Origin: a virus
Strand: one strand, 5' to 3'
DNA: 20,260 bases
Virus record (IMG/VR): IMGVR_UViG_3300027844_000933
Coordinates: 1 to 20,260 of that record
Part shown: one piece after another, positions 11,508-20,173 of the stretch
How positions within the stretch are numbered: the stretch's first letter is position 1
Layout: each line of letters begins with the position of its first letter
Notes under the pieces: model-generated
What the model was told of the DNA's origin: nothing
Databases searched by the model: none
Seen by the model: only the letters and a program-made list of their open reading frames with translations
Program-made: the position numbers and the translations under genes

Positions 11508-11809
11508 CACATCCCGCCTTCCGTGCACCGCCAAACGTGGAACCGATTACGCTCGCCTTCGTTTATTACGCTCTCGACCTCAAACACTCGATCGCCTGCA
11601 ACGAGCCGCATCGCCGAGTTTGCCGTGGCTACTAGGTGCGTCTGGATTCGGTGCGTCACAGAGCTTTGCATCTGCTGGGCCGCTTCGTACTCTCGGCCAG
11701 ATAACGGCCTGATCTCTCCCCACTGGGTATCGACTTTGCCCCAGGTGGACGGGATTCCGTCGAGGTCGTTTCCCGGCGCCTGCTCCATAATATCGAACAG
11801 CAGCTTCAT
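11507..11809 (-). CDS. head closure / head-tail adaptor (SPP1 gp16-like)
   Basis: 100 aa. This family forms the ring that closes the head after packaging and docks the tail. Support: a compact strand-rich sequence with the family layout, WGKVDTQWGEIRPLSGREYE followed by AQQMQSSVTHRIQTHLVATA and then GDRVFEVESVINEGERNRFH. The GEIRPLSGRE segment and the VTHRI strand are the characteristic parts. ATG at 11809 overlaps the connector stop as ATGA, and the next gene starts within its stop, so the four connector and tail-joining genes form a translationally coupled set. Confidence 0.88.
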   Translation of the reverse strand: MKLLFDIMEQAPGNDLDGIPSTWGKVDTQWGEIRPLSGREYEAAQQMQSSVTHRIQTHLVATANSAMRLVAGDRVFEVESVINEGERNRFHVWRCTEGGM

Positions 11810-12381
11810 CGGTATTGGCCCCAGGAAAGTTGACTGAGCAACGACTTCAAGCTGCGTTCGTTCGGCTTCGCTTCGCGCTCCGTCAGGTCGCCGAATAAAT
11901 CCCGAAGCTTGAGTTTGACGGCTGCCTCTGCCAATCCCGGAACGCTGTCGATGTCGGCATAGCCCGCAAGATAATTGATCGTCACCGCGTCGCTGCGGGT
12001 TGCCAATCCCGGCAGCGAGTAATCGGCGTCGAACTCAAGAACAGCCGCGCCGTCAGTCTCAGCTAGCAATCGGTAATCAGCGGCCGCCACTGTCTGCGAT
12101 GCGTCTGCGGTGTCGTAGTACGTGATCGAGCTGATCGACTTCACCGGCTGCCAATCAAACGCTACCGGATTGATCGGCCAGCCGTCGTAGATTTCCGCGA
12201 TTGTGTAAGACACTCGCAGGGCTCGATGCACCGAACGCTCAACAAACTCCGTAGCGGCGTCGAGCGAAAACTGCACCTCGGTATCTAGGTCGCTGCCGCT
12301 GATGCGTAGCGCTGCCGATGCCTCGCCCAACGTAACGCAAGCGGGCGAGCTCTTGGCGGATATAGTCGTGTATTTGCTCAT
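11806..12381 (-). CDS. head-tail connector, gp6-like
   Basis: 191 aa from ATG 12381. The HK97 gp6 family forms the ring below the portal. Support: helical N-terminus with LGEASAALRISGSDLDTEVQ and FSLDAATEFVERSVHRAL, the middle strand part with WPINPVAFDWQPVKSISSIT, the NYLAGYADIDSVPGLAEAAV segment and the final helix LKLRDLFGDLTERE. No Shine-Dalgarno precedes 12381, which lies 3 bases after the U-tract of a terminator-like hairpin. A TTG at 12426 is an alternative but falls inside the hairpin stem. The start is therefore less sure than the family. Confidence 0.87.
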   Translation of the reverse strand: MSKYTTISAKSSPACVTLGEASAALRISGSDLDTEVQFSLDAATEFVERSVHRALRVSYTIAEIYDGWPINPVAFDWQPVKSISSITYYDTADASQTVAAADYRLLAETDGAAVLEFDADYSLPGLATRSDAVTINYLAGYADIDSVPGLAEAAVKLKLRDLFGDLTEREAKPNERSLKSLLSQLSWGQYR

Positions 12382-12384
12382 GGT

Positions 12385-12433
12385 AAAAACTGCCGCCCGT
12401 GGTCGACTCTGGAGAACGTGCCACAAGCGGCAG
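12385..12433 (-). terminator. terminator-like hairpin between the 163-aa gene and the connector gene
   Basis: In the minus-strand RNA, CUGCCGCUUGUGG (12433-12421) pairs with CCACGGGCGGCAG (12402-12390) over 13 bp including two G-U pairs, with an 18-base loop, followed by UUUUU (12389-12385). It begins 10 bp after the 163-aa gene's stop codon. The connector ATG follows three bases later, so readthrough or partial termination is required. Confidence 0.72.
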
Positions 12434-12443
12434 GTGCGGGGGG

Positions 12444-12935
12444 TTACGCGGTGCCTTCGGCTGTCGTGGTCGAAAACTCGCCAGTTACCGCACCGGTGCC
12501 TCCGGTGTTACCAGTCCCATCGCCGTGCGTAACGGGGCTTTCCGATCCGTTGTAGAGATACGCAACGCATGTCTCGTTGGAATTATTAGTCCCGTTCTTG
12601 TCGCATTTCAGCAGCAAGTAACGCTCGGCATCGTCCATCACCGCGATGTCGATAAAGCGGACTACATCATCGTCAGCAGCAACGAGATTTTGCAGCGTGC
12701 CTGCGATATCTGCACCGCCCGTCAGCGTAGTAGCACTTGCCACTACATTGGATCGACTAACGGAAAGTGCCGTGGTTGCTGATGCTGCCATTGTGCCATT
12801 CTGGTAAACGAAACAGCATCCATTGAATCCTAGCGTGTCAACAACCTTGCAAGCCCTGTCTGCTGATGCGGCTGCGTCAAGCGCGGAAAGCACTCCAACT
12901 ATCTTGATATCTTTTGAGAAAGTTAAACCTGCCAT
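12444..12935 (-). CDS. unassigned head-region protein, 163 aa (possible capsid decoration)
   Basis: ATG at 12935 is preceded by AGGAGA 5 bases upstream; the open frame upstream of it only overlaps the capsid gene. The product starts MAGLTFSKDIKIVGVLSALD and is rich in Ala, Thr, Gly and Asn. It has strand-like parts (GCCFVYQNGTMAASATTALS, FIDIAVMDDAERYLLLKCDK) and a loose Gly/Thr end. No family is recognised. It directly follows the major capsid gene, has a strong ribosome site and has a terminator-like hairpin on each side, which suits an abundant virion protein such as a decoration or cement protein. That role is inference. Confidence 0.75.
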   Translation of the reverse strand: MAGLTFSKDIKIVGVLSALDAAASADRACKVVDTLGFNGCCFVYQNGTMAASATTALSVSRSNVVASATTLTGGADIAGTLQNLVAADDDVVRFIDIAVMDDAERYLLLKCDKNGTNNSNETCVAYLYNGSESPVTHGDGTGNTGGTGAVTGEFSTTTAEGTA

Positions 12936-12951
12936 GATTGTCTCCTGTAAA

Positions 12952-12980
12952 ATCCCTCGGCCCGTATTGGGCCGAGGGAT
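12952..12980 (-). terminator. rho-independent terminator after the capsid gene
   Basis: A perfect 12-bp stem (ATCCCTCGGCCC at 12952-12963, GGGCCGAGGGAT at 12969-12980) with a 5-base loop, followed on the minus strand by a short U run (UUUUA including the stem end). It lies 20 bp after the capsid stop and just before the ribosome site of the next gene. The short U run suggests partial termination, leaving downstream genes at a lower level. Confidence 0.83.
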
Positions 12981-12999
12981 GATTGTTGAAAAACTGAAA

Positions 13000-14388
13000 C
13001 TAGCTAGCCGCACCAGTCGACAACGCACATACGCCACCGGCATTTGTGCCGTCGCCAACATCGTGAGCAACGATGTCGTAGCGAGTCGTCGCACGAATCG
13101 CCAAGCGGTCAGTGTTGAAAGCGTACTGATCGCTTTGAGCAATCCGAACGCCGCCACGGTCGCCAATCAATACGCCATGAGTAAACGCCCCGAAGTACGT
13201 GCAAATCGTACTTACTGCCGTGGCGGTTGGCATTTGCGAACTAAAGGAAACCGGCGCACCCAGGAACATAGGTTGGCCCGACGCACCGCCTTCGATGTTG
13301 CTAACGGCATTGCCGCCAGCGTCCACCATCAGGTTGAGCATCACCTGGTAATAGAACTGCGAACTGCAAAGCCACGAAACGCCCGCGCCCCAATACTGCG
13401 ACGGAAGCAATCCCATGCAATTCGTGAAGTTCACGATTGCCAGTTCTGGCCACGTATCGGCAGAAGTTGTCGTCCCGGTTTCCGTTCCAGCCGACCCTAC
13501 CTCAGTGACCAAGCCGCTGACGTTGCCGTAGGTGCTGGTTCCGTCGCCGTTGATAAACTCATTATCTTCCTGGATGGCTAAATCCAATCCCATTTGCGAA
13601 GCAAGATCGTCCATGATTGGAATGATGCTGTCGTCGCTCAGCTCTTGGCTGATATAGGAAAGGATCGCCCGCTTCTTGGCGTTCAACGAAATGTTGCCCC
13701 AGGTCTGGTCGCTGTCGGTTATTGCAGCGGCCTCGCCAGGATAGTAAACCGTGGTGCCTGCCGTTTTCTTGGCAACGTCGAGCGTGTCAGATGTCATCGG
13801 CATCACGCGGCACAACTGACGAGAAACGCCCGCCGTGTCCCGAACGTCGATGATTGCATTTGACAACGGCGATGGCACCAAGTAACCACCGGCACTCGGT
13901 GTGCCTTCGGTCGCTGTGGCTCGGATATCCCAGCCACGGCCAAGGCAATGCGCCTCAGCATCTTCGTCGCGTCGTCCGTTGGTGTAGCCCAGCAACGCTT
14001 GCAAAAACTTGCCAGAGTCGTAAGCGTCACGCTCGCCTTCCGCACCTTTGAACGCACGTAACTTGCCGATGCGTCGATACGTCGCGGGCATTGCATCAAC
14101 GGGCGTGTTGCCGCTGCCTTCAATGCTCACGCCTGCGAACAGTTGCGGCGTGGCGTTCTGGGCTTGGCGTGCGAGTGCCAAGCGAGCCTTTTCCGCTTCC
14201 AGTTTCTCAGCCTTGACGAGCGATGCGTTGGCCGCCGCCAGCGTTCCTTCGGCTGACATAATGGCATCCCACGACGCCGTTTCCTCCGCCGTGAACTCAC
14301 GATCTTCGGTCTCCGCTAAGTTCGACAGTGCCTGGGCGTCGTCGGTTAGCTGCTCGATGGCAGCTTGGATTTCTCTTTTAGATTTCAT
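13000..14388 (-). CDS. major capsid protein, HK97 fold
   Basis: 462 aa from ATG 14388 (AAAGG about 9 bases upstream). Residues about 1-75 are a charged helical coiled coil (REIQAAIEQLTDDAQALSNL, LVKAEKLEAEKARLALARQA) like the delta scaffolding domain of HK97 gp5. The core follows, with GGYLVPSPLSNAIIDVRDTA, then LSYISQELSDDSIIPIMDDL and the very typical NEFINGDGTSTYGNVSGL. Near the C-terminus are AIRATTRYDIVAHDV and a short tail. The preceding ClpP-like protease probably removes the N-terminal domain during maturation; the cleavage point is not visible. The gene is flanked by a terminator-like hairpin on each side. Confidence 0.96.
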   Translation of the reverse strand: MKSKREIQAAIEQLTDDAQALSNLAETEDREFTAEETASWDAIMSAEGTLAAANASLVKAEKLEAEKARLALARQAQNATPQLFAGVSIEGSGNTPVDAMPATYRRIGKLRAFKGAEGERDAYDSGKFLQALLGYTNGRRDEDAEAHCLGRGWDIRATATEGTPSAGGYLVPSPLSNAIIDVRDTAGVSRQLCRVMPMTSDTLDVAKKTAGTTVYYPGEAAAITDSDQTWGNISLNAKKRAILSYISQELSDDSIIPIMDDLASQMGLDLAIQEDNEFINGDGTSTYGNVSGLVTEVGSAGTETGTTTSADTWPELAIVNFTNCMGLLPSQYWGAGVSWLCSSQFYYQVMLNLMVDAGGNAVSNIEGGASGQPMFLGAPVSFSSQMPTATAVSTICTYFGAFTHGVLIGDRGGVRIAQSDQYAFNTDRLAIRATTRYDIVAHDVGDGTNAGGVCALSTGAAS

Positions 14389-14424
14389 TGCGGTGTGCCT
14401 TTGCTGTTGTCGGCTATCGCAACG

Positions 14425-14479
14425 AAAAAACGGCACGAACTGCCGACCAAGGAAAAATGGTCAACAAGTCGTGCCGTTT
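14425..14479 (-). terminator. terminator-like nested hairpin upstream of the capsid gene
   Basis: Eleven-base arms AAACGGCACGA (14428-14438) and TCGTGCCGTTT (14469-14479) are perfectly complementary and enclose 30 bases that hold a second 5-bp hairpin (GACCA 14445-14449, TGGTC 14458-14462). On the minus strand the outer stem ends in UUUUUU (14430-14425). It lies in the 176-bp gap between protease and capsid genes. Only 36 bp remain before the capsid ATG, and I see no promoter there. An attenuator, RNA processing site or stability hairpin fits better than full termination. Confidence 0.7.
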
Positions 14480-14564
14480 CTTAACGGGGTGAGCTTGCGT
14501 CTTTCTGCGTGACGGTGCCTCTTGGTATTGCGTCCGCAAAAGTAGTTGAATTGTTGCCCGCAGT

Positions 14565-15224
14565 TTACCCCCTCATCTGCTGCCTTGTCAAATCTATTTT
14601 CCGCTGCCTGATGTTAGCGGCGATCTGAGCCATGCCCGTAGTGTTTTTCTCGCTACTTTGCCGCCAGTTCTTCGGCGTGTTGCGATAGCCAAACTCGCTG
14701 GGAACCTTGCACGCCAGCGACTTGACGCCTTCTGCCATGCCGTCAGCGAATCCCATTTCAACTGCTTCAGATGCCTTTAGCCAAACTTCCTCTCGCATCA
14801 TGGCTCGCACTTTGTCAGCGTCGCCGCCGATCCTCGATGCGTATAGTTCAGCCATGTCGTTGGCGGTGGCGTTTAGCCTTTCAACCGACTTGGCATGTTC
14901 GTCTGCATTGCCCACCGTAGCTCCCCACGGATCGTGGATCATGTAGCGACTGCCGTTTGCCATTGTTACTCTTTCGCCGCCCAGTGCCACGATGGTGGCG
15001 GCTGAGGCTGCGAGTCCGTCAATGCTGATGTCCACCGAGCCGCTGTAACCCGCAAGCAGATTCATAATCGTGATTCCGTCAGCGACTAAGCCGCCCGGCG
15101 AATTGATTCGTACCAGAATATCTTCGCCGCTCGCTTCCATGATTTGTGCGTGAACCGATTCGGGCGTTACACCGTCAGGGAAGAAACCTTTGCCGATTAC
15201 GTCGTAGATTAGTATTTCAGCCAT
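14565..15224 (-). CDS. ClpP-like prohead maturation protease (S14 type)
   Basis: 219 aa. It cleaves the capsid delta domain or scaffold during prohead maturation. Support: the ClpP-type RINSPGG at residues 39-45, the nucleophile region DGLAASAATIVA with Ser74, and the catalytic His97 in YMIHDPWG. The family-typical WLKASEAVEMGFAD segment follows near 147-160. ATG at 15224 has a strong AGGAGA upstream, placed across the end of the portal gene. Order portal-protease-capsid is the standard one. The C-terminal part after about 170 is basic and variable. Confidence 0.94.
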   Translation of the reverse strand: MAEILIYDVIGKGFFPDGVTPESVHAQIMEASGEDILVRINSPGGLVADGITIMNLLAGYSGSVDISIDGLAASAATIVALGGERVTMANGSRYMIHDPWGATVGNADEHAKSVERLNATANDMAELYASRIGGDADKVRAMMREEVWLKASEAVEMGFADGMAEGVKSLACKVPSEFGYRNTPKNWRQSSEKNTTGMAQIAANIRQRKIDLTRQQMRG

Positions 15225-18450: not shown

Positions 18451-18911
18451 TAGGAAATGTATTGGCTGGTAAAGTCGTCGGTGCTTTGTTTTTCAAGTCC
18501 AATGCGGGCTCGGGCAACGGGTGTCATGCCAAGCTCAACTAGCATTTTCAAAGCAGCATCGCGGAAGCGATGCACCTCTGAGCAAAACGGGTTTGGCTTC
18601 CAGGTAGGCGAGCCGTCTTTGTTCTTGACTTTCAAAGCGTAGCCGCTGATCTCAACCATCGCCTCTGCCTTTTTGTAGTTCGAATACGTCGCCGCGAACA
18701 GTTCAAGCAGCGGTGCTTCGGCCAACGTAATCGCGCCGCTGCATCCCATCGTGCGAAGCACATCGTCCCAGATTCCCTTGGCGGTATCGTCGAGCGTGTC
18801 GAGCGGCTGCGGCAAACCTTGCATGGGCTTCGGTTCCTCTTGAATCGGTCGCTTGCCGGGGTTGCCTTCGTGTATCTTGATAGCTGCGGGGATTGGTCTG
18901 CGGCCTTTCAT
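18450..18911 (-). CDS. terS: terminase small subunit, P27 family
   Basis: 153 aa. Recognises the packaging site and loads the large subunit. Support: the P27-family opening MKGRRPIPAAIKIHEGNPGK with RPIQEEPKP, a helix around WDDVLRTMGCSGAITLAEAP, the LLELFAATYSNYKKAEAMVE helix, then GSPTWKPNP and VHRFRDAALKMLVELGMTPV. The start ATG 18911 overlaps the methyltransferase stop as ATGA. A longer frame with ATG at 18947 is possible but gives a non-conserved basic leader and more overlap. Coupled on both sides to neighbouring genes. Confidence 0.93.
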   Translation of the reverse strand: MKGRRPIPAAIKIHEGNPGKRPIQEEPKPMQGLPQPLDTLDDTAKGIWDDVLRTMGCSGAITLAEAPLLELFAATYSNYKKAEAMVEISGYALKVKNKDGSPTWKPNPFCSEVHRFRDAALKMLVELGMTPVARARIGLEKQSTDDFTSQYIS

Positions 18912-20044
18912 AGTAGTTTCGCTTTCTGTTCTGTTAGATTTTCCCATCGCTGGATTATCACGTCGCAATAAGCGGGGGATATTTCCAGACCGTAACACTT
19001 TCGGTTGAGTTGTTCGGCTGCGATTAGGGTTGTGCCGCTGCCGAGGAAGGGGTCGAGGATTATTCCACGCCCGCCGTACCGCTTAATAATCCATGCTATA
19101 ACCGCCGTTGGCTTTGTCGTTGGATGCACCCTGCCTCGGGCTTCATTGTTACCTGAAAATAATGTACAATTATGACGAATAATCTCCCGTTTATGCCTAG
19201 CGATTGACCATATCAACTCAAACGCACTGCCGAACATTTTGTCAAATTGTTCCTCGACGCGTTTATCCCACACAATCCACGAACCGCCTTGGGGCAATGT
19301 TCTCGCATAGTAATCGGCACCGAACCAAAACCCCTCAGAATGTTGCGGTAACTTTATTTCTCGGTAATCAAAGTCGGCATCGTCGCCAAAAACAGGTTCG
19401 TAGTTTTTGTTTCCCTCTGCTTTTGTACTTGGCAACTTGGAATAATCTGTATCTAAATTCATTCCATAAGGCGGGTCCGCAACAACCAAATCAGCCACCG
19501 CCCCGCCCATCACCCGCTCAACATCTTCCGCCTTCGTAGAATCACCACACAGCACCCGATGCTCACCCAGCGCCCACAAGTCGCCCGGCTTCGTTATCGG
19601 ATCGGCTGGCGGTTCCGGTACATCATCCTCGACCACTTCGCCAAAGGTTTCCGCCATCAACTGTTCGAGTTCCTTTTCGTCGTACCCCGCCGCCGCGAGC
19701 AAGTCGGGGTCGTCCGCTGCGATAGCCCCCAGCGTGGCGGCCAGAACTTCGTCATCCCACCCCGCGAGTTCAGCCGTGCGGTTGTCTGCTATCGCGTAAG
19801 CGGTCGCCTCTGAGCCTTGAAGGTCGGTTTCGACAACTTCCACGCTATCCCATCCGAGGGCTTTAGCGGCGGCCAGGGTGCCGTTCCCGGCACGGACCAC
19901 GCCCGACGTATCAACGACGATGGGTTTCTGCTGGCCGAAGCGGCGCAGGCTCGCCGTGATCGTCGCAAGGTTTCGCTCGTCGTGCGTACGGGCGTTCGCC
20001 GGGTCTTGGCTCAGGTCGGTGATCGGGCGGGTGGCGGTTTTCAT
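18908..20044 (-). CDS. ParB-like domain fused to DNA methyltransferase
   Basis: 378 aa. The N-terminal 1-135 is a ParB/sulfiredoxin-like nuclease-superfamily domain: RPITDLSQDPANARTHDER, then FGQQKPIVVD and VVRAGNGTLAAAKALGWD, where the G-N-G replaces the usual G-x-R or G-H-R core. After a Pro-rich linker near 140-155 comes a beta-class methyltransferase. Its DPPYGMN (190-196) is the N6-adenine/N4-cytosine active-site motif, and DPFLGSGTT (331-339) binds S-adenosylmethionine, the order expected for that class. The start is ATG 20044; the frame opens further up at GTG 20149 but that part does not fit. Typical of phage packaging modules. It may protect phage DNA from restriction or mark it for packaging; its target is unknown. 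Confidence 0.93.
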   Translation of the reverse strand: MKTATRPITDLSQDPANARTHDERNLATITASLRRFGQQKPIVVDTSGVVRAGNGTLAAAKALGWDSVEVVETDLQGSEATAYAIADNRTAELAGWDDEVLAATLGAIAADDPDLLAAAGYDEKELEQLMAETFGEVVEDDVPEPPADPITKPGDLWALGEHRVLCGDSTKAEDVERVMGGAVADLVVADPPYGMNLDTDYSKLPSTKAEGNKNYEPVFGDDADFDYREIKLPQHSEGFWFGADYYARTLPQGGSWIVWDKRVEEQFDKMFGSAFELIWSIARHKREIIRHNCTLFSGNNEARGRVHPTTKPTAVIAWIIKRYGGRGIILDPFLGSGTTLIAAEQLNRKCYGLEISPAYCDVIIQRWENLTEQKAKLL

Positions 20045-20173
20045 GGAAAGTATTTTGCCTTTTCTTGAATTATTCTGACTGATTCTTTGCCTACCCCGAT
20101 GGGGGGTATGGCGTGGTTGCCCGTCGAACCAAATCGCCTGTGGCCGCACCTATGCGGCTCAAGCCCTACCTAC

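Follow-up and report, generated by a model that had tools for sequence, protein, structure and literature searches.

Gene order and hairpins of the head operon

The stretch of DNA analysed here (the window) is a virus record of 20,260 bases. The genes, hairpins, leader elements and promoter-like site described below all lie on the minus strand. The gene order is ParB/methyltransferase, terminase small subunit, terminase large subunit, portal protein, ClpP-like protease, HK97-type capsid protein, a 163-aa protein, head-tail adaptor, neck protein and tail terminator. The first of these (18908–20149) is a single gene with a ParB-like part at the N-terminus and a DNA methyltransferase part at the C-terminus, as judged from PHROG matches. 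The major capsid gene (13000–14388) encodes a 462-aa protein of the HK97 fold family (PF05065). It is followed by the 163-aa gene (12444–12935), the product of which weakly matches phrog_5707, a family of unknown function, and by the head-tail adaptor gene (11806–12381). The head and tail genes mostly overlap or almost touch, with the exception of three large gaps in the head operon: 176 nt between the protease stop and the capsid ATG, 64 nt between the capsid stop and the ATG of the 163-aa gene and 62 nt between the stop of the latter and the adaptor ATG. These three gaps are occupied by hairpins A, B and C, respectively. The stems were located where the initial annotation had placed them, in the gaps of the operon.

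The energies of the hairpins were compared with those of dinucleotide shuffles (n = 200), and all three proved stronger than shuffled sequence. Hairpin A has an energy of −34.6 kcal/mol (z −9.2), was equalled by none of the 200 shuffles and is the most stable 50-nt window of the record, counting both strands. Hairpin B (z −6.4) was likewise not equalled in 200 shuffles, and hairpin C (z −3.4) was equalled once in 200. The next strongest folding windows after hairpin A lie in a repetitive, very G+C-rich region (GGCGCGGCGGGGCGTG-like) at positions 100–330. A generic terminator scan of the window gave 15 sites against 22.4 expected, with no excess over shuffles, and a generic promoter scan of the window also gave no excess. 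The evidence for the hairpins is therefore the strength of the stems and their position, not a terminator consensus.

Hairpin B (12952–12980) lies after the capsid gene and before the Shine-Dalgarno (SD) sequence of the 163-aa gene. It is indeed the perfect 12-bp stem that had been annotated, and its U-tract, AUUUUA, is weak. Hairpin C (12385–12433) has a core at 12390–12433 with 13 pairs, including G-U, followed by U5, and ends 3 nt before the adaptor ATG. Simple GC-rich hairpins, often with a U-tract, follow the capsid gene in about half of the relatives and also in several isolated phages. Pairing of hairpin B with its flanks, assessed within a control set of post-capsid hairpins, was not above chance. 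The best reading of hairpins B and C is that they are ordinary terminators or hairpins at transcript ends, the short U-tract of hairpin B being a caveat. Since both resemble post-gene terminators of the kind present in about half of the relatives, a step-down in transcript after the capsid gene is plausible.

In one relative, L011, the hairpin after the capsid gene, which has U6, ends immediately before the adaptor gene, in the position of hairpin C, and no gene of the 163-aa type lies between the capsid and adaptor genes. The weak match to phrog_5707 and the absence of the gene in L011 suggest that gain or loss may have affected the 163-aa gene and hairpin B jointly. The adaptor gene (MSKYTT...) seems to start 3–5 nt after a terminator-like U-tract, both in the window (12376–12390) and in L011 (around 6460), and no SD sequence is visible at either start.

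Elements of the capsid leader

Upstream of hairpin A, a sigma70-type promoter-like site, TTGACA-18-TAAACT (14562–14591), matches the consensus at 10 of 12 positions and overlaps the 3′ end of the protease gene. TTGAC was present no more than 140 nt upstream of hairpin I, the counterpart of hairpin A, in 18 of 23 relatives, compared with 17% of control windows. A promoter score of at least 10/12 was reached in 52% of relatives and 0.5% of controls, although the −35 box of the window lies inside the protease gene and protein conservation could inflate this signal in the closest relatives. The recurrence of the promoter-like site indicates that hairpin A is probably situated within the leader of the capsid transcript, and is not merely the end of an upstream transcript.

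The leader spans about 110 nt, from the promoter-like site to the capsid start. From 5′ to 3′ it consists of segment 0, segment a, an upper stem, element III, segment a′, often a U-tract, element IV, element V with the ribosome-binding site and the start codon. Four alternating pairings can be drawn between these segments: P0 (0:a), hairpin I (a:a′), III:IV and IV:V, the last of them over the ribosome-binding site. Neighbouring pairings are mutually exclusive, so two global folds are possible.

At the place of P0, the window has a hairpin (14465–14497) with the core CCGUU(AAGA)AACGG, which competes with the 5′ arm of hairpin I and does not carry the consensus P0 core described below. Hairpin I, that is hairpin A (14430–14477), is composed of the lower stem a:a′ (ACGGCACGA/UCGUGCCGU) and the upper stem b, and its 3′ arm contains the core of element III, GUCGGC (14442–14447). 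A U6 tract (14425–14430) adjoins the hairpin directly on the 3′ side, giving the window the terminator-like arrangement of a GC-rich stem followed immediately by U6. The core of element IV, GCCGAC (14409–14414), is complementary to that of element III. Support for this pairing is at the level of the family: the 6-bp III:IV pair of the window itself was not above permutations (energy rank 14 of 23), and L005 has an 8-bp version.

Hairpin II, formed in the IV:V region (14386–14424), pairs CGUUGCG (14424–14418) with CGCAAUG (14392–14386). In the window it encloses an SD-like AAAGG (14402–14398), pairs the start codon itself and has a z of −2.6. The calculated energies of the two folds of the window leader are −61.1 kcal/mol for the closed fold and −40.8 kcal/mol for the open fold. 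Being about 20 kcal/mol less stable, the open fold would need kinetic trapping or a stabilising factor.

Conservation of the leader pairings and of the P0 motif

Dozens of uncultivated tailed phages, divergent from one another, have the leader. In 60% of 50 relatives, the fold z of the 150 nt preceding the capsid start was below −3, compared with 5% of 178 random windows. Several capsid relatives are without the element. Isolated phages include no close capsid relative (identity at most about 32%), and in five of the six isolates inspected the gap between the protease and capsid genes is short (4–37 nt) and contains no leader.

The pairings were assessed with a permutation test, in which each leader's own segments were compared with segments from other leaders. 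When hairpins were extended on minimum energy alone, their limits came out wrong and the III:IV test was weakened; hence, they were delimited by hand in the first set, and a fixed rule was applied to the later, new data. Over 25 leaders of the first set, III:IV gave a z of −8.3 and IV:V a z of −10.1. For pairing 0:a, the 5′ arm of hairpin I was matched with the 30 nt upstream of it; z was −4.1, and it ranged from −1.8 to −6.7 over twelve window sizes, being significant in most of them. The 0:a signal is local and was not significant with 80–100 nt of upstream sequence. Pairing of the hairpin I 5′ arm with downstream sequence was not significant in the first set, and 17 post-capsid hairpins subjected to the same tests were negative for III:IV and 0:a.

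Because III:IV had first been spotted by eye in part of the first set, the tests were repeated on new relatives with automatic delimitation. Hairpin I was found by the rule in 21 of 22 leaders. The 21 new leaders gave z values of −6.3 for III:IV, −7.5 for IV:V and −3.6 for 0:a, the control being not significant, and the 40 motif-bearing leaders (less than 90% alike) gave −10 for III:IV and −12 for IV:V. The mutually exclusive pairings 0:a, a:a′, III:IV and IV:V of the 5′ leader are all conserved above permutation. The region from hairpin I to the start codon had a z below −2 in 73% of cases, compared with 5.5% at 165 other gene starts (p 1.6e-13). The spacing from the end of hairpin I to the capsid start is fixed (33–50 nt in the first set), and in many motif-bearing relatives the SD sequence is partly paired (mean 0.46 unpaired).

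Compensatory changes were observed in hairpin I between relatives. The L021 group features a linked three-way change, in which G-C-G in the upper stem, III and IV is replaced by A-U-A, as expected if III alternates between the upper stem and IV. The L034/L019 group has one compensatory change each in a:a′ and III:IV. These within-group counts are small and not decisive alone; the argument is carried by the permutation tests.

Most relatives have the core GC-AA-CU-NNUU-AG-CG-GC at the foot of hairpin I. The pairs flanking this P0 core covary at the first two positions (p 0.0005), and covariation at the third flanking position was not significant. In the L034 group, the A-C mismatch of P0 is replaced by G-U. 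A conserved upstream open reading frame in the leader of the same group was considered and rejected, as the frame breaks in L097 (by eye).

The 17-nt P0 motif, TGCAACTNRTTAGCGGC, was scanned across all IMG/VR contigs and has at least 120 sites there. Sites with more than 900 nt downstream were taken as readable, which applied to 102 among the matches listed, and at 99 of these 102 a capsid gene lies within 1.8 kb downstream. P0 was also considered as a host element and rejected, since 392 Planctomycetota genomes showed no enrichment of the motif (4 sites, compared with 6–7 for the reversed control). A long contig of one Planctomycetota genome (L361) carries two tandem P0 hairpins (1488–1633) before a divergent phage capsid gene; their flanks differ, yet both are self-complementary (CAGAGC..GCUCUG and AGUGC..GCAC). 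The hosts of the phages are uncertain, Planctomycetota being indicated for some of them by one MAG contig and one genome.

Other arrangements were noted before capsid genes. L040, L050, L052, L055 and L065 have a different structured leader (GGCAUAGGCGG..CCGCCGAGAUGCCGUAAUCAUCGCAGCCUAUUACGG, followed by a hairpin and a U-tract), and Rfam gave no meaningful match to the L050 leader. In Marinobacter phage AS1 (L139, 1100–1200), a plain terminator-like hairpin with U6 precedes the capsid gene, and flanking pairings resembling those of the switch are absent by eye.

A proposed capsid switch and its relation to known systems

On the strength of these comparisons, hairpin A is likely to form the central helix of a leader RNA that acts in cis on the major capsid gene and controls its expression through two exclusive folds. 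Transcription would start from the putative sigma70-type promoter where the protease gene ends, and the five alternately complementary segments of the leader would allow two exclusive, presumably interconverting folds. In the closed fold, hairpin I (a:a′) would form together with hairpin II (IV:V), which would cover the ribosome-binding site or the start codon; where a U-tract follows hairpin I, this fold may also terminate transcription. In the open fold, P0 (0:a) would hold the 5′ arm, III would pair with IV and the ribosome-binding site would be freed, which is predicted to raise capsid synthesis. The trigger might be the action of a protein or ligand on P0, or the processing of hairpin I by an RNase.

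The suggestion of the initial annotation that the hairpins tune expression in the capsid region is upheld in part: hairpin A is preceded by a promoter-like site, and B and C resemble post-gene terminators, but the three hairpins are not equivalent. Hairpins B and C seem ordinary, whereas hairpin A, inside the capsid 5′ leader, is one component of a set of helices with mutually exclusive pairings.

Hairpin I could be merely an intrinsic terminator or attenuator that separates the capsid gene from its promoter or from the upstream operon, in which case the other pairings would be secondary. A GC-rich hairpin followed directly by 5–8 U is present in the window and in many relatives (U at five or more of the eight positions after the hairpin in 26 of 30 leaders of the first set), and a plain terminator-like hairpin does precede the capsid gene in phage AS1. 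However, the U-tract is mostly not kept with hairpin A among the motif-bearing relatives: a T run of at least 5 occurs in 13 of the 40 leaders, and the other 27 nonetheless retain hairpin I together with III:IV and IV:V. Termination is therefore not a sufficient explanation of the element. Moreover, III:IV is one of the best supported pairings although IV is made only after the U-tract, too late to affect termination at that point, and plain post-capsid terminators are without such flanking complementarity. We consider a mere terminator unlikely and, in view of the motif-bearing leaders without a T run and of the late transcription of IV, favour control of capsid translation, with termination optional.

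It is rather improbable that the essential event is cleavage of hairpin I by RNase III or another nuclease, after which the 3′ fragment would pair III:IV, expose the ribosome-binding site and protect the 5′ end of the capsid mRNA. Precedents for such processing are found in the T7 processing sites and in E. coli adhE; as a long helix with interruptions, hairpin I is of a type cut by RNase III, and III:IV would be a natural 5′-terminal structure once the cut was made, but the conserved sequence motif of P0 and its covariation would be left unexplained. A static pseudoknot, in which a:a′ and III:IV coexist with the U-tract as a connecting loop and serve ribosome recruitment or mRNA stability without switching, would account for III:IV without opening of the lower stem. 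Element III directly adjoins a′ in the L034 group, and the linker of 8–16 nt is long enough; however, IV:V uses the same IV bases and is even more strongly supported than III:IV, and P0 competes with a:a′, which makes such a pseudoknot improbable. Palindromic DNA is common at recombination, packaging and replication sites, and the leader might be a DNA-level element of this kind, its likeness to an RNA fold arising by chance. Against this stand the strand-specific order of promoter, P0, hairpin I, IV, SD and start, the fixed spacing to the capsid start, the tolerance of G-U, the involvement of the SD in pairing and the occurrence almost only before capsid genes among the IMG/VR matches listed, and a DNA element seems very improbable.

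Returning to the two-fold leader RNA, a broader proposal can be offered only tentatively. The leaders may constitute a new class of phage leader RNA, in which P0 would sense a signal (e.g., capsid protein, an assembly intermediate or a metabolite) and toggle a five-segment switch of capsid dosage in uncultivated tailed phages, some of them infecting Planctomycetota. The output of capsid protein relative to other head proteins in tailed phages is usually attributed to promoters, terminators and translation rates. If true, the presence of a conserved RNA switch almost only at the capsid gene, in phages that lack close cultured relatives, would add a new layer to this regulation. Mutations that should lock capsid translation off or on can be predicted from the pairings, and the short P0 motif could serve as a marker for the capsid genes of such phages in metagenomes.

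A search of Rfam 15 gave no match to the window leader at E up to 5; the leaders of 13 loci had no match at the gathering score, and those of 8 loci had none with an E of 0.5 or less. No description of a capsid leader switch was found in openly licensed papers. Leader attenuators and riboswitch platforms of the trp type likewise consist of consecutive alternating segments with two folds that hide or expose a terminator or ribosome-binding site. Unlike trp-type attenuators, the capsid leader has no conserved leader peptide and no matching Rfam family, its last switch element lies past the terminator-like hairpin and would act at the SD, and it is located before phage capsid genes.

In phage T7, the capsid cassette consists of promoter phi10, gene 10 and terminator T-phi and gives high capsid output. 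The locus studied here is similar in having its own promoter-like site before the capsid gene and terminator-like hairpins after it, but T7 uses its own polymerase, and to our knowledge no switch-like capsid leader of this sort has been described for T7. Plain terminators around the capsid genes of tailed phages, such as Bcep176, E. coli phage 733R5 and Halomonas phage QHHSV-1, are comparable to hairpins B and C, whereas hairpin A differs in its additional conserved pairings and in the frequent lack of a U-tract among relatives.

The put RNA of phage HK022 has two stem-loops in about 70 nt; its target is RNA polymerase in early transcription, and its effect extends over kilobases (PMC9378689). 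It is likewise a cis-acting nascent phage RNA downstream of a promoter that affects downstream expression; however, the capsid leader differs from put as described there in lying directly before one late gene and overlapping its ribosome-binding site. Leaders with exclusive folds are a known kind of device; what appears to be new is this sequence family and its near-exclusive link to the capsid gene.
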